Origin: Sipunculus nudus | Taxonomy: Eukaryota; Annelida; Sipuncula; Golfingiida; Sipunculidae | Assembly: GCA_026874595.1 (NCBI GenBank) | Contig: CM049313.1 | Span: forward strand, 28,518,008-28,582,007 | DNA: 64,000 nucleotides | Direction of reading: 5' to 3' | Shown: positions 3,044-63,943 of the stretch, piece after piece | Numbering within the stretch: the first letter of the stretch is position 1 | Layout: every line of letters begins with the position of its first letter | Program-made: the position numbers and the translations under genes | The notes under the pieces: generated by a model | What the model saw: the letters and a program-made list of their open reading frames with translations, nothing else | The model's database searches: none | What the model was told of the DNA's origin: nothing

Positions 3044-5761
3044 ATTAGCTGAGCTGACCCTCAGTCATGCTGAGCTATAGTGATCACTCTTTGTCCGTCG
3101 TCCGTCTGTCTGTCTGTCCGTCCGTCTGTCCGTCCGTCCGTTAACCTGGCACAAATCGTAACCGCTGGACCTAGAAACTTGTAACTTCACATTCTGAGAG
3201 GTCCATGAAAAATCTCCTTGGAAACCAGAAATTAGGTCTCTGTTACCCATATCCTTCGAGCTATGGGGCCCCAAAGTACCCCCAAGAATAGTAAAAAATT
3301 TCATACAAAAACTTAAATATCTCATCAACTACATCACTGATGGTCATGATTTTTGGCATACATCATGAGATGTTCCATCAGTTGCTGCAGACTGGTGGTG
3401 CCACCTGTATTTTTCGATTTTTACGAATTTTTTTCTCTATTTTTGAGACCTTTAAAAATGTGAACATCTGCTAACACATGTTGATTCTGTCATTCTATGA
3501 ACATGTGTTAACAGGGCACATCTCCATATCGTAAAGACTGGACTGAGAATCTTCATTCTTGACACAGTGAGAGACCTATGAAAAGACTCCATGAAAACAA
3601 GAAATAAGGTCTCTGTTACCCATATCCTTTGAGCTGTGGGGCTCCCAGTTACCCCCCCCCCCCCCCAGAATAATGGAAAATTAAAAAAAAACTGCAACAT
3701 CTCAATAACTACAACACTGATGGTCATGATTTTTGGCATACATATTGATCAAGTGGTGTTCCATCAGTTCCTGCAGACTAATGGCGCCACCTGTATTTTT
3801 TCAAATTTTTACATTTTTTTCCCCTCTATTTTGAGACCTTTAAGGATGTGGTTATCTGTCAACACATGTTGATTCTGTCATTCTATGAACATGTGTTAAC
3901 AGGGCACAAATCGTAAAGACTGGACTGAGAATCTTCATTCTTGACACAGTGAGAGACCTATGAAAAAACTCCGTGAAAACCAATAATAAGGTCTCTGTTA
4001 GCCATATCCTTTGAGCTGTGGGGCTCCCAATTACCACATCCCCCCGCCCCCAGAATAATGGAAAATTAAAAAAAAAACTGCAACATCTCAATAACTACAA
4101 CACTGATGGTAATGATTTTGGCATACATATTGATCAAGTGGTGTTCCATCAGTTCCTGCAGACTAATGGCGCCACCTGTATTTTTTCAAAATTTTACAAT
4201 TTTTTTCCCTCTATTTTTGAGACCTTTAAGGATGTAGTTATCTGTCAACACATGTTGATTCTGTCATTCTATGAACATGTGTTAACAGGGCACAAATCGT
4301 AAAGACTGGACTGAGAATCTTCATTCTTGACACAGTGAGAGACCTATGAAAAAACTCCATGAAAACCAGAAATAAGGTCTCTGTTAGCCATATCCTTTGA
4401 GCTGTGGGGCTCCCAATTACCCCCCCCCCCCAGATTAATGGAAAATTAAAAAAAAACTGCAACATCTCAATAACTACAACACTGATGGTCATGATTTTTG
4501 GCATACATATTGATCAAGTGGTGTTCCATCAGTTCCTGCAGACTAATGGCGCCACCTGTATTTTTTCAAATTTGTACAATTTTTTTCCCTCTATTTTTGA
4601 AACCTTTAAGGATGTAGTTATCTGTCAACAGGGTACAAATCGTAACGACTGGACCTAGAATCTTAATTCTTGAAAAAAAGGGAGACCCGTGGAAAGTATC
4701 CATGGAAACATGAAATTAGGTCTCTGTTACCCATATCCTTTGAGCTATGGCACTCCAAAGTACAGCTCAGAATAATGGAAAATTTGATACAAAAGCTGAA
4801 GTATCTGAACAACTAATGCAGAGATCACCATAAGTGTTTGCATGGATATTGGTCATTGAGTATTTCATCAGTTTCTGCAGACTGGGTGCGCCACCTCTAT
4901 TTTTTCAAATTTTTACGATTTTTTTTTTCTCTATTTTTTTAGACCTTTAAAGATGTTGTTATCTGTCAACAGGGTGCAAATCGTAACAACTGGATCTAGA
5001 ATCTTCATTCTTGTTATGCAAGGAGGCCCATGAAAAGTGTCTGTGGAAACCTAAAATTAGGTCTCTGTTTCCCATATCCTTCAAGCTATAGGACTCCGAA
5101 GTATCCCTCAGAATAATGGAAAATTTGATACAAAAGATGAAGTATCTGAACAACTAATGCAGAGATCACCATGATTCTTTGCATGGAGTGTTGTATGGAG
5201 TGTTTCATAAGTTTCTGCAGACTGGTGGTGCCACCTATATTTTATTCAATTTTTCGAATTTTTTTCTCTATTTTTGAGACCTTTAAGGATGCTCTCATCT
5301 GTTAACGTGGCACAAATTGTAACAACTGGACCTAGAATCTTCATTCTTGTCATGCAAGGAGACCCATGGAAAGTGTATGTGGAAACCTGAAATTAGATCT
5401 CTGTTACCCATATCCTTCAAGCTATAGAACTCAGAAGTATCCTTCAGAATAATGGAAAATTTGACTCAAAAGCTGAAGTATCTAAACAACTAATGCAGGG
5501 ATCACCATGATTCTTTGCATGGATATTGACCATTTGTTTTTATTAGTTTCTGCAGACTCGTGGAGCCACCTGTATTTTTTTAAAGTTTACGCATTTTTTC
5601 TCTATTTTTGAGATATATAAATACAGACACAATCTTGGCCTGTTGGTTAATCTGTTTGATGCTTCAGTTGAATGGGTATGTACTACCATTCAGATGATAA
5701 AATTTTCTTTTTACGAATCTTTTCCCAGTCAGCTGAGCGTCATGACCAATGGGTCACTTGT
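3044..5761 (+). mobile_element. Family A element, complete (Helitron2/HINE-like, non-autonomous)
   Basis: The 5' end has the hairpin arms TAGCTGAGCTGAC and GTCATGCTGAGCTA (3047-3077), then (GTCCGTCC)n/(GTCTGTCT)n. The interior is built from repeated units starting AACAGGGCACAAATCGTAA and ending in a GGCGCCACCTGTATTTTTT block. The 3' end has GTCAGCTGAGC, the inverted copy of the first arm, then GACCAATGGGTC and CTTGTT. No replicase, helicase or other protein is encoded, so movement would depend on proteins supplied in trans. Family placement is by structure only. Confidence 0.75.
3452..4640 (+). repeat. Three tandem units of about 390 bp inside family A element
   Basis: The block GTTGATTCTGTCATTCTATG, GAGAATCTTCATTCTTGACA, a poly-C tract and ATGGCGCCACCTGTA recurs at roughly 400 and 386 base offsets. 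High similarity between these three units, compared with the more diverged units downstream (4640-5290), points to recent local amplification. Confidence 0.85.
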
Positions 5762-6035
5762 TTTTATTGTAAGATTCTAAACCTAACCCTTTTTAAGGGA
5801 TTTCCCGGAAGACATAAGACAAAGGGAAAGCTTTTATACACAAACAGATTTGAGTTGGTTATATAGAATGTTTACATCCAAAGGCCAAACCATGGAATTG
5901 GTGCATTCCATGGGCCATAGTTATAGAATGTGTGCATTCCATGAGTATTTCTTCCATGGGACAAGCCATGCATAGTACAGGGAAAGGGCACTATAAAATG
6001 TCTGACCGGGTTCCCCCATACATTCTGTAATCTTT
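5762..6035. other. Spacer between family A and SINE, nothing identified
   Basis: The stretch contains imperfect GTGCATTCCATGG repeats near 5898-5950 and no coding or RNA gene signal. Confidence 0.4.
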
Positions 6036-6400
6036 GGAGCGTGGTGGCGTAATGGTTAGTGCGCTGGACTGATGTTGCAAGGTTGTGGGTTCGTGTCCCG
6101 ATCTGACCGCTTTCAGCGATAAGACTCCTAGCCAAAGTCTTTACCACAAATGTGCGCTCTCTTCACCCAGGAGTGAATGGGTACTGGCCAAACATGGGTG
6201 TCAGGCAAATGTAGAACGAATAACCTTCTAGCGCCGTGTGTTGCTGCTTGGTGTATGCTCCCCAGGGAGCCGAGAAAGGCTACAAGAATGAACAGGCCCA
6301 AAAGACCAGGGAGGCAAAGTGTAAAATTAAGTCGGATGAGACAGACATCGTCGATGATATCAGACTATACACCCCCACCACCTTTACCTTTATCTTTAGA
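6036..6400 (+). mobile_element. tRNA-derived SINE
   Basis: The head GGAGCGTGGTGGCGTAATGG resembles a tRNA 5' half, with A box and B box in correct order and spacing. It is followed by a non-tRNA body (CTCTTCACCCAGGAGTGAAT region) and a short simple-sequence tail rich in CCTTTACCTTTATC. SINEs are transcribed by RNA polymerase III and mobilised by LINE proteins. The length of about 365 bp is typical for the class. Resemblance to V/Deu-type SINEs of bivalves is an impression, not a match I can confirm. Confidence 0.8.
6045..6098 (+). promoter_or_regulatory. RNA polymerase III A and B boxes of the SINE
   Basis: A box TGGCGTAATGG lies at 6045-6055 and B box GGTTCGTGTCC at 6088-6098. They are 32 bases apart, as in tRNA genes. 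Confidence 0.8.
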
Positions 6401-6656
6401 TGTATCATAATTAACGGTGGTCGCACTGGCCTTTTGCTGTGGCTACACCTCGGCGCGTTCTTGGTCTTGAACTGTCGGGAATGATGCAAAGTTTACCATA
6501 AGGGGGTCCTTATTCCTCCGTAAGTCCAGAGATATTTAATATTATTTTTCGAATTCGAATCGCAGCGCCACCTATCACCTATCGCCACCAATACGATCGT
6601 GCATCAGGGCAGGAAGCCCCTGGATAACCAACCGCTGAAGCAGTATATCTGTATAA
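6401..6656. other. Unassigned spacer
   Basis: No gene, repeat copy or RNA signal was recognised between the SINE tail and the TA microsatellite. Confidence 0.4.
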
Positions 6657-6658
6657 TA

Positions 6659-9335: not shown

Positions 9336-11631
9336 ACTTTTTTATGAGGATTTTCTGAAAATGGCATTTACTTTTTTCACTCTTTTTTTCAGCAGCACTC
9401 TTTTTTTATCTTCATTTTTTTCGTGAAAGAATTCTGATATATAAGCCTATACTCTTTCTCTCCTGTCAGTTAGAATAAGTATGGGACATTTGGCATTTTT
9501 GGGTATGCATATGAACATGTGTCACAACATGTGGAAAATTTTCATGCAGGGGTATATAAACCTGTATACAAAGTACTTTTTCATTTGATTACAATTATAT
9601 ATCCACCAATCAACGATACATATTTTATAAACCTATATATTAGTGTTCTTTTCATTTGATCACTATATGTGATTGTAAGTCGTTTTCCTTTATTATTAAT
9701 TTAATATGAACATTGATTTGATTGGCTATTTGTCTATCCCTTGATGCTAGCAATGTAAACAAGAAGTGATATACACTATAGGATGTGATTCAGCCGACCT
9801 TGACCGGTCGCACAGTGATCTGCTCAGCCTGCCGTGTCACATTTGATGAGGGTCTGTTAAACTTCGGTGTAAGGATTAAAACCTACAGGACGGTCGTGTG
9901 TATAAACAGTGCGTCCTTGTGATGTTCATCTAACTTAACATATTGTACACGTTCTGTGGGATGTTTATTAGGTACAAGCTAAAACCTATTGATTCAGAAT
10001 GCTCAACACTTTGTTGTCGGTACTTCCTTTATTGTAAAGCAGTAACTGGGGTTTTCACATTATAAGAAACGCACGGGGTTGTATCAAGTAAAACGTATAG
10101 AGTGGTAGACCGACAACAAGCGCCCACAATTAGGTCTGCTGGCAAGTGAGTTTCTTGGGGCTGGTCTGCGTCCGATTTGGCACGTACCAGGATGAATTAG
10201 AAGCGGCCCTCGAGCAACATTACCGTTGCGCCGTGCTTACAGGTCCGAACAGCTGGCAACATTCCTCCATCCCTCAAAGGAATTTCCTGGATTGGCGCCA
10301 ACCAGGCGTTGTGTTATTTGCTAAGCCAGGTTGTGTTCCGTGCAAACATTACCATGAACGAATACACACACACGCACACACACCTACCTGATGTGGCTCA
10401 CTCCTGTTATTGACTACCACCAGTTAATTATGTGGACTACCAAATGGTTAAGATTTCCAGTTAACCCGGTGGGAGTATGTAGACGGCAGTGTGAGTACAG
10501 GCGCGGTCCATCAGTTACCCTCACATGGCAAAAATTCAGGTGTCACAACAGTCACAATATTGTTGTTGTTTTTTAGTAAACGCGCCTACGATTAGTTTTG
10601 TTTATCCTCTCATCCAGACGTGATAAATTTTGCAGGATTTAAGGAATATGTGTCTGAATATTGGGATATTATAATATGATGATCAAAGACAAATGAATGA
10701 TCGTTTTGCCAATAGTCCTACTTTGCCAATACTATAGTCTATTTGTCAGCCACATAATAACTAAATAAGCATACCATACTGAATCCACTACTGAGAAAAT
10801 GGCATGACTGCAGAGATTTTTCAGTCTCAGAATATAGGTAAAATGTATAATAAATAGAAAGAAGTGACCCATGGATAATGATGCTCAGCTGACTGACGTA
10901 TTGGTATTGGATATGATCCTACATGCATTCATGTGTTTAGTACTGGTTGTCCGGAGGGCACTGTACATTAGCCTGTAATTTATCCAAATGAGGTGAGCTA
11001 ATCACCCATGCGGAGGTCCAATGATTACATTTTGTAATATACATTCACCACATGTATACTCCTGGTATATTATCACTGTACTCAAGCTGGTACATTTCTC
11101 GATCTGGTCTTAGTTGTGAGTAAGAGGTAAGAAATATGAAAACCTTGTTTCAGCTTATTGGTGCATACTAAAACACTATGTCGCCCAATGAATATTACTT
11201 CATGGTTTGGTCCGGCATTAGAAATTGTATTTAGCATAGTTAAGCTGCTTGAGTATAGAATATAATGGAAACATTTCGCTATTTATTTTATGTGATGAAA
11301 GAAATCATCTCAAGGCATCTCAATTTCATATGCAAATCAACAGATATAAAGAACATTCTTTTTCTGATAATTTGTGGACCTGTGCATAGACTTTGCAAGG
11401 CTGTATTGTTTTACAAAACGTTCATAGGGATCCCATATTAATTTATATCTGGAGATCTCAGACTTTTGCAATCTGAGTCCACACGAAGTCGGACCTCATT
11501 CCTTACGATCTCAGACTACTCGGACGCCTTCAGACCTAGTCCGGGCTCATTATACCATTGACATACACACGTATAATATAATTATAACTTATAATATTCA
11601 CACTATCAATAATGCGAGTGCTTCATTCAAG
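9336..11631. other. Long unassigned stretch
   Basis: No family was recognised. An open frame of 81 codons (10146-10391) ends in a CA microsatellite and lacks known motifs. A splice-donor-like CAAGTGAGT lies at 10143-10151. The segment 11085-11170 resembles 36070-36200 loosely (AGCTGGTACAT, then GTTGTGAGT / ATTGTGAGT), suggesting an old duplicated repeat. A host gene here cannot be excluded, but nothing supports one. Confidence 0.35.
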
Positions 11632-13310
11632 TTTTAGCTCAGCTGACTATAAGTCAAATGAGGTATAGGAATGGCGCTTTGTCCCCGTCCGTCCGGCCGT
11701 CCTGTCATTCGTTAGCAGGGCACAGATCTGGTCCTAGAAACTTCTAAGTGAACATCCAGGGAGGTCAATAAAAAATCTCCTTGAAAACCTGAAATTAGGT
11801 CACTGCGACCTATATCCTCTGAACTATGAGGCTTGTAAATACCCCCCAGAATAATCAAAAATTTGATACAAAACCTCCAATATCTTGATAATAAATGCAT
11901 GGATTGTCATTACACTTGCCTTGAATATTGACCATGACTAGTTTTGTCAGTTCCGCAAAAGTGTTTGCGCCACCTGTATTTTTTCTAATTTTTACGAATA
12001 TTTTTCCATTTTTTTACTATAAAATGACAACAATCATGTCAGTTTCTCGGCCCTGATTCCATCTAGTGTCCCAAAACCTGGTGTGTTTATTGATCACAGG
12101 TTGATTCCCTATAGTAATCACCCTGTCTGTCTGTCTGTTCATCCGTCCATCCACACAAATTTGTTTCGAGATGATAACTTCTGGTTGGATTAAAATATGG
12201 ATTTCAAACATGACTTACACATGGCCCACCACTAAAGAAAGAACCTATATGATTTTTGGGCCATGAGCTCAAGGTCAAGGTCACAAGCCTCACTTTAAAA
12301 AGATTATGGCTGCATTTTAAGCCAAGCTTTTCATCCCTAATTTTCTATCTTGCACATTTAGCTGATTTGCCAGTATAGGGAGAGCATAAATGAATTTTGG
12401 GTCACAAGGTCAAAGGTCAAGGTCACAGGGGCCAATCTGTTCACAAATTAGTTTCCAGATGGTTACTCCAGTTTAGTCTGACATATTGGTTTCAAACTTA
12501 ACTTATATTTGGCTCACCAGTAAAGTAAGAACCGTGTGGATTTTGGGGTCCAACGATCAAAGGTCATGGTCACAGGACTCATTTCTTTAAAAAAAATTGC
12601 ACATGCATTTGAAGCCAAACTTTTCATCCCAAACCTTCCATCTTCAAGATATTGCTAACCTGCCAATAGGGGAAGATTTTGTTCAATTCTGGGGTCATGA
12701 GGTCAAAGGTCAAGGTCACAGTACCAACTTATTAAGAAAGATTGTGGATGCATTTTAAGCTAAACTTTTCATCCAAAACCTTCCATCTTGTACATATAAC
12801 TTAGCTGCCAAAAGGGGAAGAAACTGATTGATTTGGGGGTCACAAGGTCAAAGGTCATCGTCACAGGGGCCCATCTGTCCACATATTTGTTTCTGGATGA
12901 TAACTCCAGTTTGGATTGACATATTGGTTTCAATTTTGACTCATATATGACCCACCAATAATGTAAGAACCTTTTTGATTTTGGGGGCATAAGACCAAAG
13001 GTCAAGGTCACAGGACCCACTTCTTTAAAAAGATTGTTGATGTATTTTTAGCCAAACTTTCTGTCCCAAACATTCTATCTTCCAGATGTTGCTCACCTGC
13101 CAATAGTGGAAGTAACTGATAGATTTTGGGGTCACAAGGTCAAGGTCATGGGGGCCATCAATTGACAAATTAGTTTATGGATGATAACTCCAGTTTGGGT
13201 AGACAGGTTGGCTTCAAACTGATCACAGGACCAATATTTTGGAAAACCTCATAAACATATATTCTTATAGACAAATGCAGCTGAGCGTCGAGACCCATAG
13301 GTCCCTAGTT
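11632..13310 (+). mobile_element. Family A element, complete
   Basis: The 5' end reads TTTTAGCTCAGCTGAC with a weaker partner arm, followed by GTCCGTCCGGCCGTCC. The interior carries one CACAGATCTGG unit and then five nuclear-receptor satellite units, with exact cores at 12407-12425 and 12700-12718. The 3' end is CAGCTGAGCGTC, a GACCCATAGGTC hairpin and CTAGTT (13305-13310). An LTR-like repeat begins at the next base. Confidence 0.78.
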
Positions 13311-14899: not shown

Positions 14900-16359
14900 T
14901 TGTATCCGCCAAAACGAAGTTTTGCGGATACTATGTTTTTGACCGGGTTCCGCCTCCGCCGCCGCCGCCGCGTTCGTTTCCGGAGAACTCCTCTGAGACT
15001 ACTGGACAGATTTTTCTGAAACTTACACAAATTATCGGGTCACATGTGAACTGGTGCCTAACCAAGTGGCCTTGACCTCTGACCTTTCCTTTCTGCCCAG
15101 CGTCCGTTTGTGCGTCTGTTTCCACACATAAACCCACATATCTCGGGAACCGTTTGAACGATCAGGAAAAAAAATTTGTACAAATGTAGCCCTTGGATAG
15201 CTTTATAACATTCACTAAAAATGGTGGCGCCACCTGCAACCATGTTTGCACAGTGTCCATCTGTTCATCTGCCTTGAGTTAAAATCACTCATATCTCTGC
15301 AGTGGTTTGACTAATTCACCTAAAATTCGGCATGCGTATGCATCCCGCATAGCTTTCTTGATTTTATGACAGATGGCGCAACCTTCATTCACGTTCTCGC
15401 TGTAGACATCCATGCTTATATCTCCGGACTCGTTCGACCAATCAGGAAAAAAAAATTACACAAATGTAGCCCTTGGATAGCTTTATAACATACACAAAAA
15501 TGGTGGCGCCACCTGCAGCCATTTTTGCACAGCGTCCATCTGTTTGTCTGCCTTGGGTTAAAATCACTCATATCTCTGAGTGGTTTGACCAAATTACCTG
15601 AAATTCGCCATGCTTATACATCCCGCATAGCTTTCTTGATTTTATGACAGGTGACGCCACCTAAATTTACGTTCACGCTGTAGACATCCATGCTAATATC
15701 TCCTGACTCGTTCGACCAATCAGGAATTTTTTTTACACAAATGTAGCCCTTGGATAGCTTTATAACATATACAAAAATGGTGGCGCCACCTGCAGCCATT
15801 TTTGCACAGCGTCCACCTGTTTGTCTGCCTTGGGTTAAAATCACTCATATCTCTGCAGTGGTTTGACCAAATTACCTGTAATTCGGCATGCGTATACATC
15901 CTGGATAGCTTTCTTGATTTTATGACAGGTGGCGCCAGCTTCATTCACGTTCACGCTGCAGACATTAATGCTTATATCTCCGGACTCGTTTGACCAATCA
16001 GGAAAAAAAATTTACACAAATGTAGCCCTTGGATAGCTTTATAACATACACAAAAATGGTGGCTAACCTTTTGCACAGCGTCCATCTGTTTGTCTGCTGT
16101 GGGATAAAATCACTCATATCTCTGCAGTGGTTTGACTTTTTCACCTGAAACTTTGCATTTGTATACATCTTGGATAGTTTCTCGTTCAAATAACGGGTGG
16201 CGCCACCTACAATCATGTTTACGTGGCAGAGATCCATTCTAATATGTAACACATGTAACTCTATTTTCCCTTGCCACTCAATCCATGCCTCACTTCACCC
16301 GTCCTACTCTGATTTTGGCGGATACACGTAGTCGCTTGTCGACTACCTGTATTCTAGTT
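14900..16359 (+). mobile_element. Family C element, complete (Helitron2/HINE-like)
   Basis: The 5' hairpin has arms GTATCCGCCAAAAC (14902-14915) and GTTTTGCGGATAC (14919-14931) with loop GAA. The interior is four tandem units of about 280 bp, each with TGTAGCCCTTGGATAGCTTT and a GGTGGCGCCACC-type palindrome. The 3' end has TTTTGGCGGATAC (16313-16325), the inverted first arm, then a hairpin GTAGTCG-CTTGT-CGACTAC (16328-16346) and CTAGTT (16354-16359). It encodes no protein. Confidence 0.75.
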
Positions 16360-16425
16360 TTAATACCAAACTGCTGCCTTGGACCCTGAGCAACTGTCTT
16401 TTCAAGATTTTCACCACATTCTTTG

Positions 16426-17408
16426 TTGTATGCTCAGACCAAGTCGGGATACTATGGTTTAAGCACGGTCGCGCCGCCACCGAAGAGATTTAGTTTGGAC
16501 GCGATAACTCAAAAATATTTTACCGATCTTTACCATACTTGACATGTGCATAGATATGGGTGAGAGGACGAAGCCTATTTGAAATGGGGTCTTGACCTTT
16601 ACTAAGAGATTGACCTTGACCTTGAATAGTTCCATTTTGGGGGGAAATCACACAAATTCTTAACTATCTCAAAAAGTCTTTGTTGGATTGATCCAAAAAT
16701 CAACCTGACCAAAGATCTAGGACAGTGTTGTCAGATACCGGAAACTGGTAGCGCCACCTGTTATCCTTTTCTTGTTTTTGTGCTGTTAAATACCCCAATC
16801 ATTGGCACTTTACAATACTGTGAGCAATATAAGTCAAAAACTAATGGACAGATTTCTTTTATATTATGCATATATATAGACATGGGTAATGGGATGATGT
16901 ATATATATATATATTAGGGTCATGACCTTTCCTATGAGAGTGGCCTTAACCTTGAATATTGCCATAAATGGTAAAAATCACACAAAATCATTAATGTCTC
17001 AATGAGGGATGCATGGATTGGTCAAAAAATCATCTTGACCGAAGATCTTGGATAGTATTGTCATGTACCGGAAACTGGTGGCGCCACCTGTTATTCTATT
17101 ACTTGTTTTCGTGCCGTTTAATACCCCCATCATTGCCATTTAATAGTACTGTGAGCATCATAAGTCAAAAACAAGAAATATCTTTGTTTTTCTTAGATTT
17201 ATTTTTACTGAATGTCATTGTATATTATCTTATTTAAAATTTAAATATTCCCATTTACATTATTCATCACCTGCTTAGAGCCTGCAACTTTATTTATTAT
17301 GTTAGTGATTGCTGTAATTCATAATTAGGGCCCCACTTTAATAAGCGGTTGCCCTGTAGTTAATCACCCTGTCTTTCAGTCTGGCTGTCCACAAATTCGT
17401 TTTCGAAT
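16426..17408 (+). mobile_element. Family B element, 5' fragment
   Basis: It starts with GTATGCTCAGACC / GTCGGGATAC, a decayed family B hairpin. Two B units follow, each with GACCTTGACCTTGAATA or a relative and a palindrome site (GGTAGCGCCACC, 17077-17088 GGTGGCGCCACC). It ends in a scrap of family A (ATCACCCTGTCTTTCAGTC) before the next B element. Confidence 0.65.
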
Positions 17409-19838
17409 AATTGTATCCCCAGACAAAGTCGGGATACTATGGTTTCACGACGGTCCCGCCGCCGCCGCCGCAGAAAAACATTGTGAGCGGGATAACTTAA
17501 AAATTATTTCACTGATCTTTTTTCAAACTTTTCATTTGTATAGATGTAGGAAAGGGGAAGAAGCCTATTTAAAATGGGGTCATGACCTATGCTAGTAGAG
17601 GGACCTTGACCTTGAATAGGTCCATTTTTGCTGAAAATAACACAAATTCTTAAATATCTCAAGAAAGCTTGCATGGACTGGTCCAAAAATCAAGGTGACC
17701 GAAGATCTTGGATAGCCTTGTGATATACCGGAAACTGGTGGCGCCACCTATTATCCTTTTCTTTTTTTTACGCCTTTTAATACCCCCATAATTGCCACTT
17801 GACAGTACTGTAAGCATTATAAGTCAAAAACTAATGGACAGATTTCTTTCATATTATGCACATGTAGAGAAATGGGTTATTGGATGAGGTCTATTTACAT
17901 TTGGGTCATTACCATGAGAGTGGACTTATGTATGGCCCACCACTAAAGTAAGAACCCTATAGGTTATAGGGTCATGAGGCCAAAGGTCAAGGTCACTTGA
18001 CTCGCATCTTAAAAGATACTGTGGATGCATTTTAAGCCAAACTTTCATCCCAGGTCTTCCAGCTTAAATATATAGCTCACTTGCCAATAGTGGATGATCC
18101 ATATCAATTTTGGGGTCACAAGGTCAAAGGTCAAGGCCACATGAGCTATCTGTTAAAAAATTAGTTTCTGGATGATAATTCCTGCTTTTATTGATGTATT
18201 GATTTCAAACTTGACTTATATATGTCCCATTGAAAAAGCAAGACTCCAATTGATTTTGGGGTCATGAGGTCAAAGGTCAAAGTCACAGGACACATCTTTA
18301 AAAAGATTGTGGATGCATTTTCAGCCAAACATTTCATCTCAGACCTATCATCTTGCGCATATAGTTCATCTGCCAAAAGAGGAAGACCCCTATCAATTTT
18401 GAGGTCACAAGGTCCAAGGTGAAGGTCACAGGAGCCATCTGTCCAAAAATTAGTTTCTGGATGATTATTCCTGCTTTTATTGATGTATGGATTTCAAACT
18501 TGACTTGTATATGACCCATTGGAAAAGCAAGACCCGAATTGATTTTGGGGTCATGAGGTCAAAGGTCAAGGTCACAGGACACATCTTTAAAAAGATTGAT
18601 GATGCATTTTCAGCCAAACAATTCATCTCAGATCTTTCATCTTGCACATATAGTTCATCTGCCAAGAGAGGAAAACCCCTATCAATTTTGAGGTCACAAG
18701 GTCAAAGGTGAAGGCCACATGAGCTATCTGTTAAAAAATTAGTTTCTGGATGATAATTCCTGCTTTTATTGATGTATTGATTTCAAACTTGACTTATATA
18801 TGTCCCATTGAAAAAGCAAGACTCCAATTGATTTTGGGGTCATGAGGTCAAAGGTCAAAGTCACAGGACACATCTTTAAAAAGATTGTGGATGCATTTTC
18901 AGCCAAACATTTCATCTCAGACCTATCATCTTGCGCATATAGTTCATCTGCCAAAAGAGGAAGACCCCTATAAATTTTGAGGTCACAAGGTCAAAGGTGA
19001 AGGTCACAGGAGCCATCTGTCCAAAAATTAGTTTTTGGATGATTATTCCTGCTTTTATTGATGTATGGATTTCAAACTTGACTTGTATATGACCCATTGG
19101 AAAAGCAAGACCCGAATTGATTTTGGGGTCATGAGGTCAAAGGTCAAGGTCACAGGACACATCTTTAAAAAGATTGATGATGCATTTTCAGCCAAACAAT
19201 TCATCTCATATCTTTCATCTTGCACATATAGTTCACCTGCCAAGAGAGGAAAACCCCTATCAATTTTGAGGTCACAAGGTCAAAGGTGAAGGTCACAGGA
19301 GCCATCTGTCCAAAAATTAGTTTCTGGATGATAATTCCTGCTTTTATTGATGTATGGATTTCAAACTTGACTTGTATATGTCCCATTTGAAAATTAAGAC
19401 GAGAATTGATTTTTGGGTCATGAGGTCAAAGGTCAAGGTCACAGGACCCATCTTTAAAATGTGGATGCATTTCCAGCCAAACATTTCATCTCAGATCTTT
19501 CATCTTGCACGTATAGTTCACCTGCCAAGAGAGGAAGAACCCTATCAATTTTGAGGTCACAAGGTCAAAGGTGAAGGTCACAGGAGCCATCTGTCCAAAA
19601 ATTAATTTCTGGATGATAATTCCTGCTTTTATTGATGTAGCCTTGTGATGTGCCAATAGGTCAAGGTCACAGGACCAACCTCTACAAAAAGATTGTGGAT
19701 TGATAGATGGAAGAAACAATAATGGCTTGCCAAGTGTCAGTATATGCTGCTAAAATGGGGGCCTATTCTTAAAGGGGGGGGGGGGGCGTACTATGTCTGG
19801 GGATACTCTTGCACCTGCGGTGCCAAGAAATGTCTAGT
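17409..19838 (+). mobile_element. Family B element, complete, with nuclear-receptor satellite
   Basis: The 5' arm GTATCCCCAGACAA (17413-17426) pairs with GTCGGGATAC just after it. A B unit with GGTGGCGCCACC (17737-17748) is followed by the shared satellite (17930-19680), then a G-rich tract. The 3' side has GTCTGGGGATAC (19795-19806), hairpin GCACC-TGC-GGTGC and CTAGTT. No protein is encoded. Family A-like sequence continues directly after the end, so this copy appears to have landed in or beside an A element. Confidence 0.75.
18150..19640 (+). repeat. 289-bp satellite with 578-bp higher-order repeat
   Basis: Blocks recur at 289-base offsets, and blocks two steps apart (578) are nearly identical, for example 18188-18376 with 18766-18954 and 18477-18665 with 19055-19243. 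Each 289-bp unit contains two half-units, one with GGTCATGAGGTCAAAGGTCA and one with GGTCACAAGGTCAAAGGTGA. The open frames seen on the minus strand follow the period and are not genes. Confidence 0.92.
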
Positions 19839-44414: not shown

Positions 44415-45405
44415 GTGAAGGACTATAATTGTATCACGATTGTGGTACTATATTGAATCAATGAACATCATGGATATAGTGGGCTATGATTAAGGACTAT
44501 AGTGTAACACGTGAGAGAACGATATATTTAATAACCTGATTTAAGGAGTAATATGATGAGTGTATTATTGAATAATTTTGGAGGGGTATAACATAGAGGT
44601 ATATTTGAGCAAATATGAAGGCAATGACAGCATACTAAGGTGTGGTAGAATGAAGATAAGGATATTTTTGAAGGATCTATAGTGTATGGAGATCTGCAAG
44701 ATTTCAAGTTGACAGATATTATGTTTTGGTTAACTATGTAGATGAGGGGATTGATAATTTGATGACAGAATGGCATGCGTAATATTTATCATGTTAAATG
44801 TTCAGTATTATTTAGATATCATATATTGTCACATACACCGTGTGTGTGATATATTGTAATATTTTGTGTACTGGATGTTCTGTGTAGTAATGTGATGAAG
44901 TGGGGAAGTTATGAGGTAGTAGTATGGGGAGGAGGTTGTAACAATATATTACTAAGCATTGATAATATGATAAACAACGGCGTAGGAATGCATTAGAGGC
45001 CATATTGAATATGGAATAGTGGGTCAATTGAATTGTCCAAATGAATAGGAAACTGATGCTGATAATATCTTGTGATCTGACCAGGAACTTTCTAAAGTTG
45101 ATACTGATGCATTGGGATAATTAGAAAACATGAGATTTATCATATTGCCACGATTATTGGTTGGTTCTGTGACAAGTTGTTGACATTTGAACAGTTCAGA
45201 TATGTGTTAATTTGGCATTATTTTCAGCATTTGACTTGGCTTTTATAACTTTATCTACATTGCAGTAGAAGTATTTGAAAAAAATGTCCACTATAAGTCA
45301 TGTTAATTATGCTGTTTACAAATGAGTCAATTGTTATTCATTAATTTCAGGTTATCCCTACCCAAGAGTAGCACTAGCACAAATAATAAAAGGGTTTAAC
45401 TATTT
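44415..45405. other. AT-rich unassigned DNA
   Basis: Minus-strand frames of 71-82 codons at 44528-45027 have low complexity and no motifs. No repeat copy was recognised. Confidence 0.4.
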
Positions 45406-46671
45406 ATTGTATCCCAAGAAAAGAGTTGGGATACTATGGCTTAAGCATGGTCACGCCGCCGCTGCAGAGATTTTGTTTTGACACAATAACTCAAAAAATA
45501 TTTAACGGATCCTTACCAAACTTGACATGTGCATAGATATGGGTGAGAGGACGAAGCCTTTTTTAAAATGGGGTCATGACCTTTATTAGGAGAGTGACCT
45601 TGATCTTGAATATGTCCATATTTGGGGAAAACCACACAGATTCTTAAATATCTAAAGTCTTGGATTGATCCAAGAATCAACTTGGCCAAAGATCCTGGAT
45701 AGTGTTGTCATGTACCGGAAACTGGTGGCGCCACCTATTATCCTTTTCTTGTTTTTTGTGCAGTTTAATACCCCCATCATTGCCACATAACTGTAATGTG
45801 AGTATTATAAGTCAAAAACTAATTGACAGATTTCTTTTATATTATGCATATACATAGACATGGGTTATGGGATGATGTATATTTAAATTGGGGTCATGAC
45901 CTTTCCTATGAGAGTAGCCTTGACCTAGAATATTGCCATATATGGTGAAAATCACACAAAATCATAAATATCTCAATAAGGGATGCATGGATTGGTCAAC
46001 AAATCAAATTGACCGAAGATCTTTGATAGCTTTGTCTTCTGCAGAAGACAGGTGGTGCCACCTTCTGTTCTTTTCTTGTTTTCGCGCCTTTAAATACCCC
46101 ATTATTGCAACTTGACAGTACTGTGAGCATTATAAGTCTAAAACTGATGGACAGTTTTGGCTAAAATTGTGCATGTCCATTGATCTGGGATACCTCCATC
46201 ATGAATTTAAGACTGGTAGCGCTATCTGCAATCGTTATTGCGTGGCGTCCACCCGTACGTTTGCTTTCGGTGAAAATTGCTCCTATCTCTGGAGTGGTTC
46301 AAGGTATTGTTCTGAAATTTGGCATATGTCCATCCATCTTGAAAAGTTTTCTCGTAAACCAGACAGGTGGCGCCACCTATCTTACCGTGTAGAATAAATT
46401 AATGCCCTTTTCTCAGGACTGATTTGCCCTATTGGCCTGAAATTGTGCATATCCATGGATCTTTGACTTCTCCATCTTGTACTCAAGACTGGTGGCGTCA
46501 TCTGCCATTATTTGTGTGTGGTGTCGATCCGTACATTTGTTTCAGGTGAAAATTGCTCATATCTGAGGAGTCCTTCAATGTGTTGGTCTCCAATTTGGCA
46601 TGTACATCCATTTTGGAGAGTTTTCTCGTCAACCAGACATTTACCATTTTTATAGTATAACCTTACCATTT
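45406..46671 (+). mobile_element. Family B element, 5' part
   Basis: It starts GTATCCCAAGAAAAGAGTTGGGATAC with GGTCACGCCGCCGC. B units follow, with GGTGGCGCCACC at 45724-45735 and 46366-46377. It is cut at 46672 by the start of a family A element. The family B 3' end is not seen beyond it. Confidence 0.7.
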
Positions 46672-47395
46672 TTTAGCTCAGCTGACTGTAAGTCATCTGA
46701 GGTATAGGTATGGCGCTTTGTCCGGCCGTCCGTCCGGGCGTCTGGCTGTCCGGTCCTCCGTTAGAACGGCACATATCGAAACCGCTGAACCTAGAAGCCT
46801 GTAACTAAAGACCTAGGAAGGTCAATAAAAAAATCTCCTTGGATACCTGAAATTAGGTCACTGCAGCCTATATCCTCCGAGCTATGGAGCTCGTGGGTAC
46901 CCCCCAGAATAATAAAAAAATATTGTACAATACCTCCAATATCGTGATAAATAATGCATGGATTGTCATGAATTTGCCTTGAGTATTGACCATGACCATG
47001 ACTTTTCAATCTTGCACATACATGACAACTACCAACAGGGAACCATCTCTATCAATCTTGGGGTCACAAGTTCAAAGGTCAAGGTCACAGGAGCCATCTG
47101 TCCACATATTCATTTCAAGATGATAACTCCAGTTGGGATTCACATATGGATTTCAAATAGGACTTTTACATGGCCCACCGCTTAGACAAACATCCTTCCT
47201 CATTTAGGGACATGAGGTCAAGGTTACAGTCCCCACATCTTTAAAAAGATTGTGAATGCATTTTTAGCAAAACCTTTCATACCAGAGGTTCTATCTTACA
47301 CATACAGCTCACATGCCAATAGGCAAATATCTCTTTTACCTATTGAGGTCAAAAGGTCAAGGTCACAGGAGTCATCTGTATAACGCATTAAGTTG
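46672..47395 (+). mobile_element. Family A element, 5' part
   Basis: The 5' arms TAGCTCAGCTGAC and GTCATCTGAGGTA pair at 11 of 13 positions and are followed by GTCCGGCCGTCCGTCCGGGC. Satellite units continue to about 47385. The 3' terminus is missing. Confidence 0.65.
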
Positions 47396-50895: not shown

Positions 50896-51791
50896 CTTGA
50901 CGACCGCCCTTTGACGAGTTCGACGCCGGTACGACGGATATAGAAAGTTATTTGGAGCGGCTGGACGAGTATTTCATCGCATATGACATTGCGGATACGG
51001 CCGACAACGCAGCCAAGCGCCGCGCCATTTTGTTAATCTCGCTCGGTGCGAACACGTACAGGATTGTTAAAGATCTGGCGTTTTCTGACCCACCAGCATC
51101 AAAAACTTTTGAAGAATTAGTGATACTGTTGAGAGGACATTTCAAACCGGCACATCTTAAGGTGGCTGAACGATACAGGTTTCATTCAGCAACACAACGT
51201 CCAGGTCAGTCAATTGCCGATTTTGTCAGGGAGCTAAAAAAGTTAGCCAGTACGTGCGAGTTTTCCAATGCCCAGGTAAACGATAGTCTTCGAGACCGTT
51301 TTATATGCGGTATACGTTCGGAGCAAGTAAAGAGAAAGCTTTTAGCTCGGAATTATACATTCCAGGAAGCTGTGGATGCAGCTTTAGCGCACGAAACGGC
51401 ACAGAAAGATGTTAGAGACATTGCTACATGTAGTGCTGGTCCTAGTGACACTTCTGTCAATAAAATCAGACATTATACCCCACGTCGGCCACAAGGCACG
51501 GCAGTTGGTCCGAGAACTACAGGGCCAGGTCCAACACAAAAAAAGAGCCGCTGTGATAGATGTGGCCTGCATAACCACACCCGTGAGAACTGTAGACACA
51601 AAAATGGTGAGTGTTATCGTTGCCACAAGACTGGACATTTACAACCCGAGTGTCGTAGCAAGCCAAATCGTACCCAGCGCCCTGTAAGACAGCGTAGGGT
51701 CCATTATGCAGCGGAGGACTCTGATTCTCAGCCTGAGGAGAGGGATGAGATACTAAATTTCTCAGTGTTTTTCCTTGTGCCACAGCCATAA
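50892..51791 (+). pseudogene. Gag of Gypsy-1 (capsid plus two CCHC knuckles), nonsense at codon 3
   Basis: Gag builds the particle around element RNA. The frame from 50892 gives ATG GCT and then TGA at 50898, after which it stays open for nearly 300 codons to TAA at 51789-51791. Counting from 50952, residues 1-150 match a Gypsy capsid (FEELVILLRGHFKP, VAERYRFHSA, FVRELKKLA, LRDRFICGI). Two knuckles, C201-C204-H209-C214 and C221-C224-H229-C234, both fit CX2CX4HX4C and should bind RNA. The start at 50892 overlaps the primer-binding region, which is common in this group. The third-codon TGA is best explained by decay. The 3' end contains a slippery heptamer that would shift ribosomes into protease. 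Confidence 0.88.
51755..51761 (+). promoter_or_regulatory. -1 frameshift slippery heptamer
   Basis: A AAT TTC lies in the gag frame 30 bases before the gag stop. It fits the X XXY YYZ rule. The -1 frame is open from the next codon into the protease, so it is a plausible Gag-Pol frameshift site. Confidence 0.6.
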
Positions 51792-52195
51792 GGGCTATTG
51801 AGTCAGACCAGCCTGGTATACCGGCACCAGCTGTTAAAGTCCCAGTGATAATTGAGGATACAAATTTTGAGATGGAGGTAGATACAGGGTCGGCAGTATC
51901 AATTATGAATTACTCAGACTATGAACACTATTTTAAGTATTTGGCTCTTCGTCCGGTAGAGAGATCATTCCATGCCTACGCAGGTACTCCACTAGATATT
52001 GCGGGTCAAATTATGGTGGACATTGAGTATGGTAACCAGAAAGCAACATTGCCACTTATGATTGTACGGGCTAGTAAGTACGCTCCACCGCTCTTTGGTC
52101 GATCATTGTTAGCAAGGATCCGGTTGGACTGGAAAAAATCTATATCCTACAGGTTTGTGTCCCCAAGGTCAGTTTGCAGTAGCAGATTCGGATAG
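51761..52195 (+). pseudogene. Aspartic protease of Gypsy-1
   Basis: The frame lies -1 relative to gag and is open from the slippery site to TAG at 52193-52195. It encodes a retropepsin-like domain with the active-site stretch MEVDTGSAVSIM, a GTPLDIAGQIMV flap region and a PPLFGRSLL segment near its end, then LDWKK. Retropepsins act as dimers and process Gag-Pol. The active-site triad DTG is intact. The protein would be translated only as a Gag-Pro fusion by frameshifting. After LDWKK the frame runs off into noise while reverse transcriptase continues in another frame, implying a one-base indel near 52140-52155 (or, less likely, a second programmed shift). Confidence 0.8.
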
Positions 52196-53726
52196 CTTGA
52201 ATCCAGACACTAAGGTGGCCCAGTTGAAAGAACAGTACACAGATATTTTTAAACCAGATTTAGGTACGGTTAAGGTAACAAAGGCCTCATTACACTTGAA
52301 GAGCAATGCTACACCGGTTTTCCGGAGAGCGCGTCCAGTACCCATCGCTCTTCGCTCAGCAGTTGAAGCAGATTTGCAACGGATGGAAAGAGAAGGGATC
52401 ATCAAATCAGTAGACTTTAGTGATTGGGCTACACCCTTAGTCTGCGTCCAAAAAACAGATGGATCGGTTCGCCTCTGTGGCGATTATAAAGACACCGTCA
52501 ATCCAGCAATCCAGACGGAATACTTCCCCATTCCCACACTGGAGGAGATCAGAGGTAGGGTAGCTTCATGGACTAAGTTTACAAAGATTGATCTCCGTTG
52601 TGCATATCAACAATTGTTGCTTGATGAGGAGTCGCAAAAACTGTGTACAATAAACACTCATAAAGGTCTTTTCCAGTATACGCGATTGCCATTTGGAATC
52701 TCTTCAAGCCCAGCCATTTGGCAGAGGTTTATTGATCAAGTACTTTCGGGAGTTAAGGGAGTATGTGTGATCATGGACTATGTTTTAGCAGGAGATTCCA
52801 ATGATGACGAGCACTCAGAGAATTTGAGAACAGTGTTTGAGCGTTTTGACAAAGACGGGTTGAGAGCAAAATTTGAAAAATGTGCATTCATGGTCCCATC
52901 AGTTGTGTATTACGGTGTTCGCTTTTTGGGACAAAGATTTCAACCGACAGATGATAAGGTTAACGCGATCAACAAAGCACCAACTCCCCGGAATGTTTCA
53001 GAGTTGCGGTCATTCCTGGGCATGTTAGCAGCCATGACAGGATTTATACCCAGGTTATCGACACTGGCACATCCACTTTATGATTTGCTAGGCAACAAGC
53101 CATGGAAATGGACATCTGAATGTAGCAGAGCTTTCCGAGAGGTCAAGCAAGCTCTTACAGCAGAAACAGTATTGTCTCATTATGACCCAAACCTGCCTGT
53201 TGAGTTGTCAGTAGATGCATCACCATATGGACTAGGGGCTGTAATACAGCATGTGTTCCCTAATAAAACCTGTCGTCCCATTGCATATGCATCGCGAACG
53301 TTGAATAGCCATGAGAAAGGCTACGGTCAGATTGACAAAGAGGGATTGGCCATTATGTTTGGCTTGAAGCGGTTCCATAATTATTTGTACGGGAGACACT
53401 TTACAATTAATACGGATCACAAACCGTTGGAACGGATCTTTGGCGCAAAACATTCAATACCGTCACTGGCAGCCTCTCGCTTACAACGTTGGGCCATAAC
53501 ATTGTCTGCATTTGACTATGACATCAAGTTTGTGCCATCGAAACAGAATGCGGTGGCTGACGCACTCTCGCGCTTACCTGTCAGTTCAACACATGGTGGT
53601 GAGGATGACATATTTCGTGTCGAGGAGCGTGTTGTGGACTGTTTGCCGATTACCCACAAACAAATCAGTTTGGCTACACGTAGAGATCCAGTCTTGTCGA
53701 AGGTCCTCGCGTTTGTGCGGAATTGA
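52155..53726 (+). pseudogene. Reverse transcriptase and RNase H of Gypsy-1, catalytic Asp replaced
   Basis: This copies element RNA into DNA and removes the RNA strand. About 523 residues are open (the first codon is TTG, so it is an internal part of Pol). Fingers and palm motifs are clear: PVPIALR at 61-67, VRLCGDYK at 105-112, KIDLRCAYQQ with catalytic D146, LPFG at 178-181. The box that should carry two adjacent aspartates reads IMDYVLAG, so D208 is followed by Tyr209 (codon TAT, 52779-52781). RNase H motifs LSVDAS (D354), DKEGLA (E396) and NTDHKPL (D421) are intact. A TGA at 53724-53726 ends the frame in the linker to integrase, which continues in the same frame. The Tyr substitution removes a metal-binding residue, so the enzyme should be inactive. 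Confidence 0.92.
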
Positions 53727-55028
53727 TGGCCACAACAGCTCAGTGATTTGAGATTCCGCCCATATTTGGATAAGAAGTTCCAATTATCTTTCGAGCAGGA
53801 TTGTCGGTTATGGGGATTGCGCGTGGTTATCCCTGCCTGCTATCGCGATGAACTGTTGCAAGAACTCCATATTGGCCACCCCGGGATGGTACGAATGAAG
53901 GAAATGGCCAGAAGTTTCCTCTGGTGGCCACACATTGATTTAGACATTGAGCACGCGGTGCAGCACTGTGCAAGCTGTCAACAGGTGAGGAAAGCCCCTC
54001 CATTAGCTCCATTGGTCCCCTGGATGTGGCCTAGTATGCCTTGGCACCGGATTCACGTTGACTATGCTGAACATGAAGGCAAGCATTACGTGATCGTGGT
54101 GGATGTTCACTCCAGGTGGCCAGAGGTCTTCTATATGCCCAACGACACGACGGCTGTATCCACAATCACGATTCTTCGCAACTTGTTTGCGGCATATGGA
54201 TGTCCAGTTCAGTGCGTTAGTGATAACGGACCACAGTTTCGCAGTGAGGAGTTTGGTACGTTTTTGCGCATGAATGGGGTAAAACACGTGCGCGTTGCAC
54301 CTTACCATGCCGCTAGTAATGGCCTTGCAGAGCGCATGGTTCAATCATTTAAGGCTTATATGAAAACGTCAAAAGGCAGCAGGCTTTCGGTGCAGCAACG
54401 CCTGGCAAACTTTCTTCTTCTGTACCGTACAATGAAACACGCCACCACTGGTTCAACCCCGTCTGCTCTCTTTTTGGGCCGTGAACTGCGTACCCGTCTA
54501 TCCCTTCTTCGGCCAAGCGTGGGCAAACATGTGCTGGATGCACAAGCCAATCAGAAGGCCCAACATGATATGCATGCTCGGAATCGTCAGTTCAGTGTGG
54601 ACGACCAGGTTTACGTCCACAATTTTACCAAAGGTCCGACGTGGTTGGAGGGAGTTGTTACCCAAATACGAGGGCCATTGTCCTATGGTGTCAGATTGTC
54701 TGATGGCCGAATTATCCAGCGACATGTGGACCATTTGCGGGAACGACATAGTGTTAGTGATAGTCCACTAGACCAGGAGGGGGAGGAGTTCCCAGAGCCG
54801 GAGGTGCCTTTTCCAAAACCTGTCGGAGATGACAACCGTGTCAGAGATGACAACGTCCCAGGGTCAGCAGAGATAACACTGATGCCCCTCGGGGAAGGTT
54901 AGCTCACGAGCGCTGACAATGATGATGCTCATCCAGAGGTTAGAGTAGTTCCGGTTAAAGCGCAGCATGCTTCATCACCCCGGAGATCACAACGAAACCG
55001 TAAGGTGCCAGATCGTTTAGGTTTGTGA
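53727..55028 (+). pseudogene. Integrase of Gypsy-1
   Basis: Integrase inserts element DNA into the genome. The frame continues that of reverse transcriptase past TGA 53724. Counting from 53748, the zinc-binding HHCC domain uses H41, H44, C74 and C77 (HIGHPG, CASC). The catalytic core has D105 (HVDYAE), D159 (SDNGPQF) and E195 (NGLAERM), all present. A GPY-type module (GPLSYGVRL) lies near residue 310. A TAG at 54900-54902 interrupts the tail, but the frame continues with a basic RRSQRNRKVPDRL end to TGA at 55026-55028, typical of Gypsy Pol C termini. Both stops look like late decay because the flanking domains are otherwise well preserved. Confidence 0.92.
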
Positions 55029-56514: not shown

Positions 56515-57504
56515 GTGGTAAACATAAGTTACGAGATCCCAGGTGTTCCTTGGACAAAACTAGCCAGTGATATGTTTGAACTTAACAACTCCCAGTATAT
56601 GATACTTGTGGATTACTACTCAAAGTTTCCATATGTTAAGAGAATGAGCCAGACAAGAAGCTGCGATAAAGCAAATGAAACCTCTGAGTGTTTTAGCATA
56701 TTTGGTCCACCGCTCGAAATAGTGACTGACAATGGGCCACACTATAGTGGAAAACCCTACAAAGATATGTGCACGAAATGGAACATCAAACATACAATAC
56801 ATCACCAAAGACAAATAAGAACAATCAAGGGTGTGCTTAAAAAGTGTACAAAGACAAGTAATGATATAATTATAGCCATGCAACACCTTAGGTGTACCCC
56901 AATCGACTCGAACCTACCTAGCCCAAGTGAGATACTATTCAACAGACAGATTCGCACAAATCTGCCAAGCAACCAGTCACTGGCAGGCCATAAATACCAA
57001 TACATTACCAGTCATCTGCAAGAACGCACACAGCGGATGACACAGAGATACAATCAGTCAGCTGGGCCGGACCTTCCACCATTGAGAGAAGGACAGCACG
57101 TCACCATATTACACAAAGACAAGGGCAGGTGGATGCCTGGGGAGGTGGTTACGGTATGTAGGGAGCCCAGGTCATATAGGGTACATACACAACAAGGTTA
57201 CATAGTTAGGAGAAACAGAAGGGATATACGAGAACAACCCCTGGACAGAAAAAGTATGAAACATGCACAACAAATGAACCCAACACGACGTGTTCATTTC
57301 GCAGACGAATTTCCAATTCGCCATTACGCAGAAGCCAACCAGCAAAACCAACCAAACCAAGATATTGTTGAGCAAGGTGAACCTCAACCAGCTGAGCAGA
57401 TACGACCCAATGCGCAGCCGCAACCAGATATCCAGCCCAAGCACAGACAGAAGACAACACGTTATGGCAGAGAAATCAAGAAGCCATCTAGATATCTCGA
57501 CTAA
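56515..57504 (+). pseudogene. Integrase of Gypsy-2, catalytic Glu missing
   Basis: A 329-codon frame encodes an integrase core: WTKLASDMFEL (D19), VDYYSKFPY and TDNGPHYS (D72). The segment that should contain the catalytic glutamate is replaced by HHQRQIRTIKGVLKK (residues 96-110), so D,D-35-E is incomplete, apparently through a short deletion. The C-terminal domain (GQHVTILHKDKGRWMPGEV, YRVHTQQG, residues 193-240) and a basic Pol tail (TTRYGREIKKPSRYL) are present. The N-terminal zinc domain is absent, consistent with the larger internal deletion. It should be inactive as an integrase, although its frame is long and open. Confidence 0.88.
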
Positions 57505-62845: not shown

Positions 62846-63213
62846 CTCACCAGTGCCATTGTGGTGTTCATCTGTACATTTGTTTTAGATGAAAATTGCT
62901 CATATCTGAGGAGTCCTTCAATATGTTGGTCTCCAATTTGGCATGTACATCCATCTTGGAGAGTTTTCTTGTCAACCAGACAGGTGGCGCCACCTACCTT
63001 ACAATTTTTATAGTATAAATTTATCCCCTTTTCGTAAGAGTGATTCTCTATATTGGGCCCCATAATTGGTGAAAAATATTGTTTCTCAAGTTGATAGATG
63101 TTCCATAATCGCTTTCAGTATATGCTGCTGAAGATGGGGGGAGGGGACTATTCTTAAAGGGGGGATTAATTGTCTGGCGATACTATGGCACCTGCACCAA
63201 GAAATACCTAGTT
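62846..63213 (+). mobile_element. Family B element, 3' part
   Basis: One B unit with GGTGGCGCCACC (62983-62994), a G-rich tract, TTGTCTGGCGATAC, a reduced GGCACCTGC hairpin and CTAGTT (63208-63213). The text 62850-63000 matches 46500-46640. Confidence 0.75.
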
Positions 63214-63220
63214 CTAATTG

Positions 63221-63941
63221 TTGCTTGCCGGAAATCTCCGATTTCGGCAAGCTGGTTGGTCAGTCGCGGATGTCTGTTTGTTGCTTGCCGGAAATCTCCG
63301 ATTTTGGCAAGCCGGTTGGTCAGTCGCGGATGTCTGTTTGTCTGTCTGTCCTTGTGCATCTACAAGACTCAGCTTTTACCATTCTGAAAATGGTAAATCT
63401 TATGTCTTGCTATAATATCTAGAATGTGATTTTTCAAATTCTGGATATGGCTGCTAGGAGGCACTGCAGTCCAACTATTTCACCATATAATTTTTTTTGC
63501 CATATCTCCAAAACTAAAATTTTTATTGCATAAATTATAGCTAAATTAATTCCTCTGGGTCTTTTCCATATTCTGGTAAAGTCATCTTGTCTCAACCTTT
63601 TGGCACCTTGTCAGTATGTCTGTCTGTTTGTCAGTCATCCTCAATTTGCCCTGCTTACTGGTGCTTGCATCTTACATATAACAATCTACAAGCTACAGTT
63701 TTGCATTAATCCTTTTGAAACTGGTACATCTAATGTCTTGCAATAATACCTAGATAGTTATTTTTCATTTTCTGGGTATAGTGGCTAGTGGGCGCTGCAG
63801 TCGAACCACTTAAATATATCAGTGTTGGCCTATTGTTGGTCAGACTGCTTAATTGTAGCGTGTTTTCTTCCACTTCTTCATTGCTCGTTCACTTTTTGTT
63901 TCCACATCATTTCCGGCAAGCGCTCGACCTATGGTCATCTA

Positions 63942-63943
<2 letters not shown>
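63221..63943 (+). mobile_element. Family D element, complete (Helitron2/HINE-like)
   Basis: The 5' hairpin has arms GCTTGCCGGAAATC and GATTTCGGCAAGC with loop TCC (63223-63252), and the whole start is duplicated 60 bases downstream. A (GTCT)n block follows. The 3' side has ATTTCCGGCAAGC (63909-63921), the exact 13-base inverted copy of the first arm, then hairpin GACC-TAT-GGTC (63926-63936) and CTAGT (63939-63943). No coding capacity. Confidence 0.75.

Follow-up and report, generated by a model that had tools for sequence, protein, structure and literature searches.

Four repeat families at a Sipunculus nudus locus read as non-autonomous Helentrons, with a gene-bearing partner for one of them

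A stretch of 64,000 nucleotides from Sipunculus nudus (assembly GCA_026874595.1, contig CM049313.1, positions 28,518,008 to 28,582,007 of the forward strand; hereafter the window, whose own numbering is used unless a contig or locus label precedes the position) holds four repeat families, A to D, that differ in their repeat units and resemble one another in how their ends are built. The locus raises the question of what kind of mobile element these families are and whether a single machinery moves them all. An initial annotation had suggested a new mixture of Helitron2/Helentron and classic Helitron features, possibly defining one mobilisation system for diverse cargo. We conclude with high confidence that A to D are non-autonomous Helentrons (HINEs, of Helitron2 type) moved by autonomous Helentrons encoding a Rep-helicase(-endonuclease): family A by a lineage represented by an element on C17, and family D perhaps by a second, antisense lineage. 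The mixture is not new, since the parts of three earlier papers drawn on here already describe this terminal plan for Helitron2, Helentrons and HINEs (PMC3627910, PMC4067079, PMC7492417). The four families thus represent ordinary Helentron/HINE biology of a known kind, with well-defined ends.

In the common plan, a 5' arm and its partner arm open the element and central repeats make up its interior; the arm then recurs ahead of a second hairpin, and the element ends before a T. The 5' arm, a subterminal inverted repeat (subTIR), folds with adjacent sequence into a hairpin that can be read in A, B, C and D, bearing out the claim of a 5' hairpin in every family. In A, C, D and one B copy, the 5' arms lead into a short microsatellite. 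The family A HINE copy (3045-5760, plus strand, as are all elements below unless stated) consists of a 5' subTIR with its partner arm, a GTCY/GTCC microsatellite, central repeats of 340-386 bp, a 3' subTIR, a hairpin and the end CTTG/TT, where the slash marks the boundary. The family B HINE (40012-41982) has a 5' hairpin GTATCCC..GGGATAC, a satellite centre, a 3' subTIR, a hairpin GGCACC..GGTGCC and the end CTAG/TT; a second complete B element, B2, lies at 17413-19837. In the family C HINE (14902-16357), the 5' hairpin is followed by a CCG microsatellite, 278-bp repeats, a 3' subTIR, a hairpin GTAGTCG..CGACTAC and CTAG/TT. The family D HINE (63221-63942) carries a 5' hairpin duplicated as a 60-bp unit, a TCTG microsatellite, a 3' subTIR, a short hairpin and CTAG/T, followed by a TCTG array.

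The inverted arm upstream of the 3' hairpin matches at all bases in B, C and D, as the initial annotation had it: 14/14 in B (40012-40025 with 41938-41951), 13/13 in C (14902-14914 with 16313-16325) and 13/13 in D (63223-63235 with 63909-63921). We compared the first 50 with the last 80 bases of each element and with 2000 dinucleotide shuffles of each. The longest arm matches (14 in B, 13 in B2, 14 in C and 13 in D) were reached by 0 of 2000 shuffles in every case, and random pairs of places in this window, rich in AT repeats, gave a run of at least 13 in 6 of 5000 trials. The arms are weak in the window copies of A, three of which gave runs of 7, 9 and 9 that 268, 23 and 15 of 2000 shuffles matched or exceeded; family A therefore rests on its genome-wide pattern and not on the window copies. 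The A match of 11 that had been claimed is 10/11 in the copy at 3045 (5' GCTGAGCTGAC with 3' GTCAGCTGAGC), and a full 11/11 occurs in the gene-bearing C17 element. In the A 3' hairpin, 93.3% of cells pair, compared with 20-56% in slid controls. The subTIRs of B and C both start with GTATCC, and those of A, B/C and D are unlike.

The ends recur throughout the genome. We searched them as exact patterns in the window's own 1.43-Gb genome, with a reversed control that gave 0 matches every time. The 3' patterns matched 8014 (A), 2645 (B), 4866 (C) and 424 (D) times and the 5' patterns 30668 (A), 583 (B) and 5306 (D) times, counts that depend on the strictness of each pattern and are therefore lower bounds, not to be compared between ends or families. 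The A 3' end continues as CTTGTT in 7036 of its 8014 matches, which makes CTTG the rule for A genome-wide, and the D 3' end continues as CTAGT in 321 of 424. A "CTAG then T" end, which the initial annotation gave to all four families, accordingly holds for B, C, D and the A copies at 11634 and 29854 and fails for the A copy at 3045, which ends CTTG/TTT. Among the matches listed for the C 3', A 5' and B 5' ends, about 100 places each at the low ends of the first chromosomes and judged by eye, CTAGTT was found at all but 7 C 3' ends, and TT preceded all but 2 A 5' ends and all but 2 B 5' ends. In 20 fetched B loci together with the two window copies, TT stood before 17 of the 17 5' ends found and after 12 of the 13 3' ends found.

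The initial annotation had also proposed comparing insertions with empty sites, and we found two for B and one for C. When joined, the flanks of B copy L025 align with window positions 45815-45951 over 139 bp (91.4% identity), leaving a gap of 2 nt where they meet. The flanks of B copy L017, joined likewise, are 74-75% identical to three other loci (L069, L073 and L074), the gap here being 5 nt and lying at the junction or next to it. Upstream of the Rep gene on C3, a C copy is flanked by GTCAGATATTT and TTTTTTGTAATTTTAT, and a C8 relative reads GTCAGATATTTTTTAGTAATTTTAT; the difference is limited to a T run and one A. No target duplication beyond a few junction bases was seen at these three sites. 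Cut-and-paste transposons are rejected on the 5' hairpins, the TT site and the lack of a visible duplication. Canonical Helitron1 elements would account for the CTAG/T ends and the 3' hairpins of B, C and D, the CTAG being of the CTRR type. However, the elements lack a 5' TC, insert at TT and not between A and T, and possess 5' hairpins and subTIRs, and the partner of A has a weak endonuclease match. We give Helitron1 next to no probability and reject it on the 5' hairpins, the TT site and the absence of a 5' TC.

What moves family A is suggested by a gene-bearing element with its termini. A Pfam PF14214 profile located Rep loci at no fewer than 143 places in the genome, and walking out from one of them revealed an element at C17:35625479-35640366 (minus strand, 14,888 bp) with an open frame of 2342 amino acids. 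On its 5' side stand an A 5' end, the partner arm and a GTCC/GTCT microsatellite, with a second A 5' end 0.7 kb inside; its A-type repeats are 68-82% identical to the window copy, and its 3' end is of A type, GTCAGCTGAGCATCATGACCCATGGGTCACTTG/TTT. A C-family HINE is nested inside it. The 2100 residues of the protein that were scanned contain DUF6570, Helitron_like_N and PIF1 domains. Scanned alone, the last 333 residues of that stretch matched the endonuclease families PF14529 (E 7.4e-5, 23.0 bits, below the cut-off of 27.4) and PF03372 (E 8.4e-5, 22.9 bits, below the cut-off of 24.5). This element is the Rep-helicase partner with matching ends that the initial annotation had recommended looking for, found here for A with Rep and PIF1 domains, A ends and A repeats. 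In a sister locus on C13, an A-like 5' end lies 9.0 kb from the Rep match, compared with 9.7 kb in C17.

The geometry of the C17 element predicts where a 3' end should lie at other Rep loci. We fetched 2 kb around the predicted position at 10 further loci and called an A-type 3' end at no more than 3 mismatches to a 30-place pattern. Such an end was present in the orientation of the Rep gene at 6 of the 10 (L069, L071, L072, L073, L074 and L077) and in the opposite orientation at none. For scale, 8014 A 3' ends amount to about one per 356 kb per strand, so that a 2-kb window would contain the exact pattern with a chance of 0.6%, or of a few per cent once variants are allowed. L071 (over 1031 bp) and L072 (over 1047 bp) reach 98.6% and 98.9% identity to C17, the similarity stopping after ..CACTTG/TTT, so that the three have the same terminus and differing flanks. 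A second group (L069, L073 and L074) ends ..TGGCCCATGGGCCACTAG/T with a two-sided change in the hairpin; L069 and L074 are 96.6% identical to each other, and L073 is 77-80% identical to both. The window A ends and the C17 element have the terminal 30-odd bp in common. C17, L071, L072 and L077 carry the 3' arm GTCAGCTGAGC without mismatch, as does one window end out of six, and the 5' arms of five window copies match at 10 or 11 of 11 positions.

These 3' ends might instead belong to neighbouring or nested A HINEs and not to the Rep element itself. In favour of this, family A occurs in very many copies, a further A 3' end follows the first in L069 and L071, and these loci contain other, nested HINEs. 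Yet C17, L071 and L072, at 98.6-98.9% identity, share one stop between differing flanks, the second group stops at a variant terminus of its own, and the matches follow the Rep orientation in 6 windows without a single case in the opposite one. We consider an origin from nested copies very unlikely. That family A has a gene-bearing partner is well supported, and a C17-type element probably mobilises this high-copy family. Together, the TT boundaries, the empty sites of B and C and the Rep-helicase partner of A uphold the likeness to Helitron2 and Helentron-HINE elements that had been noted at the outset.

Several observations weigh against this explanation of A to D and must be set beside the evidence for it. 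The A 5' end is so common (30668 matches) that its presence within 10 kb of a Rep gene says little by itself. A good A 3' end was not seen in the 2 kb fetched at 4 of the 10 Rep loci (L070, L075, L076 and L078), nor in the 3.7 kb downstream of the C13 sister frame, and the 10 loci were chosen by alignment to PF14214, not by membership of each in the C17 lineage. The final ~25 residues of the C17 frame diverge from the C13 relative, so this copy may not be fully functional. Covariation in the A hairpin is slight, with one two-sided pair change represented by 2 distinct sequences from one related group; 127 of 500 shuffles had as many two-sided pairs and 6 of 500 a score as high. No empty site was found for A or D. 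Finally, Helentrons are placed in one family by an identical subTIR of at least 11 bp and in one subfamily by 80% identity over the last 60 bp (Thomas et al. 2014, PMC4067079, in the part cited); the window A ends are 70-78% identical to C17 over those 60 bp (n = 6), below 80%, and hence do not form one subfamily with it.

The partners of the other families are less clear. Walking out from copies on C3 and C8 gave a candidate for D on C8, where a D-type 5' end at ~80149700 (1 mismatch) and a 3' end at ~80128800 (7 mismatches in 28 positions, with the 11-bp arm exact) bracket 20.9 kb around a Y-type Rep gene. Both ends are on the strand opposite to that gene, and D repeats adjoin the 5' end. 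A relative on C3 no longer has ends of its own, and at C8 and elsewhere D 5' ends are also found tandemly arrayed at ~1.26-1.29 kb; the D partner is therefore only suggestive, and a second, Y-type Rep lineage in antisense orientation perhaps serves D. Arrays of D 5' ends with other sequence are found at L084 (C8:80121500-80130450) and C1:290-306 kb, and they appear to be a satellite built from a Helentron 5' end and its flank. Some D 3' ends abut TCTG microsatellites (window 63942-63983, the lists of D ends, and also C3), as if D had inserted into the microsatellite just inside the 5' end of another D element. No B or C termini were found as a Rep locus' own ends among the Rep loci read. The C ends that lie close to Rep genes on C3 and C17 and at L078 were considered as partner termini and rejected, as they look like nested insertions. 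At the X and Y loci (Rep genes on C11 and C4), termini of A to D were not found in the flanks read, which reach ~2 kb downstream. Rep loci L029 and L030 fit either lineage poorly.

Could one enzyme with interchangeable termini mobilise all four families? The plan and the T-rich target are common to A to D, the same satellite occurs in A- and B-ended elements, and the subTIRs of B and C have the GTATCC start in common. Against this, A ends go with the C17 Rep lineage and D ends seem to bracket the Y-type gene, the Rep segments of the two lineages being 31-36% identical; the subTIRs of A, B/C and D are dissimilar, and the Rep loci read offered none with B or C termini of its own. We regard a single enzyme as improbable. 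The proposal of one mobilisation system acting on diverse cargo is sustained as to cargo, as A-type ends carry at least three types (the 145-bp satellite, the 340-386-bp repeat and the Rep gene). As to the system, the ties of A and, less surely, of D to such divergent Rep lineages imply unity at the level of the superfamily, not of one enzyme.

The cargo cuts across the termini. A 145/289-bp satellite of B is present in three further A-ended elements of the window. The first (11634-13308) has an A unit followed by the satellite and ends CCTAG/TT; the second (29854-31415) has the satellite, the end CCTAG/TT and a 5' end with 9 mismatches to the pattern used; the third (35015-37265) has the satellite and a 3' end that recurs at 37529-37559 through a 294-bp tandem duplication. 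Their satellites are 76.6% (513 bp), 75.2% (879 bp) and 71.3% (477 bp) identical to that of B2, and part of B resembles the C units (69% over 169 bp). The description of A to D as unrelated families thus does not hold in full. In the same comparison, in which 160 shuffled sequences gave 1 match, the stretch 45400-47000 had been cut arbitrarily and takes in an A 5' end, and its A-B matches are therefore not counted. The 294-bp duplication (36972-37561, 97% matches) leaves one element with two potential 3' ends.

Two motifs recur within these repeats. The palindrome GGTGGCGCCACC has 31 matches at no more than 2 mismatches, against 0.59 expected (3394-5570, 15223-17748, 40259-46502 and 62983), in units of A (with 1-2 mismatches), B and C. 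AGGTCAAAGGTCAAGGTCA, which covers AGGTCA-type repeats of the 145-bp satellite (92-47087), has 42 matches at no more than 3 mismatches, against 0.01 expected. Both lie in tandem repeats, so the matches in each count are not independent; the point of note is the presence of the palindrome in the otherwise unlike units of A, B and C. The AGGTCA-type repeats resemble nuclear-receptor half-sites. Termini and satellite cargo might recombine freely between separately mobilised Helentron lineages, with motifs of the GGTGGCGCCACC type under selection through binding of host or element proteins, an idea that we put forward as doubtful. The presence of one satellite under two sets of ends, A and B, is relevant to the means by which animal genomes acquire and disperse satellite arrays.

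Partial elements and other features complete the window. Family A contributes an additional 5' end (46673-46708), a 3' end on the minus strand (44381-44411) and a degenerate 3' end, also on the minus strand (10861-10891). An additional B 5' end lies at 16428-16457, and a degenerate B 3' end (63172-63211) immediately upstream of the D element. A 48-bp tandem array of 21 copies (1994-3006) adjoins the first A element on its 5' side. Three successive frames at 50952-54902, named by eye, resemble a Gypsy-like gag with zinc knuckles, a reverse transcriptase/RNase H and an integrase, and a further integrase-like frame, likewise named by eye, is found at 56515-57504.

The ends, the TT boundary, the empty sites of B and C and the gene-bearing element with A termini are direct observations; the steps of mobilisation are modelled on the named families. 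A Rep-helicase(-endonuclease) would nick at the CTTG or CTAG 3' boundary beside the 3' hairpin and at the 5' boundary beside the 5' hairpin. One strand would then be peeled off and copied by rolling-circle replication, and the copied strand would enter a TT dinucleotide with no duplication of the target. Two pairings are open to the subTIR, one inside the 5' hairpin and one with the inverted copy close to the 3' end, and such pairing has been suggested to signal where replication stops (PMC3627910). As A is tied to a Rep-helicase lineage by termini, repeats and several gene-bearing copies, this model can be tested in cells.

The elements are best understood beside three published systems, each cited from part of its source. 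In the definition of Helitron2, the 5' asymmetrical terminal inverted repeat (ATIR) pairs with its downstream neighbour to form the 5' hairpin, and the 3' ATIR immediately precedes the 3' hairpin (Bao and Jurka 2013, PMC3627910). The families described here likewise have a 5' ATIR hairpin, a 3' ATIR directly before the 3' hairpin and a T-rich target, mostly without target duplication. They differ from Helitron2 in that the A partner has a weak endonuclease match, as in the Helentron branch, and in that many copies hold satellite arrays.

DINE-1/HINE elements and Helentrons follow the same plan and insert at TT targets (Thomas et al. 2014, PMC4067079), and the portions consulted of a Fusarium paper (PMC5148889) and an oyster satellite paper (PMC11136912) agree with it. 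The present elements correspond to them in the subTIR and its neighbouring inverted repeat, the microsatellite, the central repeats, the 3' stem-loop and insertion at TT, as well as in a partner with common ends, a Rep/helicase/endonuclease element there and a Rep-helicase element with a weak endonuclease match here. A CTAG 3' end has been published for a proto-Helentron (PMC4067079), and reverse-oriented Rep genes, like that of the candidate D partner, are on record (PMC4067079, PMC3627910), including at least one published partner with a reversed gene in the former. Unlike the published partners, which are >95% or >98% identical to their HINEs (PMC4067079), the C17 element corresponds to the window A copies mainly in the terminal 30-odd bp and in repeats of 68-82% identity.

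The Cg_HINE/Pearl elements of oysters likewise have satellite centres, GTCY microsatellites and T-rich targets; 11 oyster HINEs have the same plan, including some without sequence relationship to one another (Vojvoda Zeljko et al. 2020, PMC7492417). In the part of that study cited here, the autonomous partner of such HINEs was left unresolved, none of 10 autonomous Helentrons being relatable to a Cg_HINE, and each repeat cluster had one specific pair of flanks (PMC7492417). In Sipunculus nudus, by contrast, one autonomous Helentron is tied to family A, and a single satellite occurs between A flanks and between B flanks.

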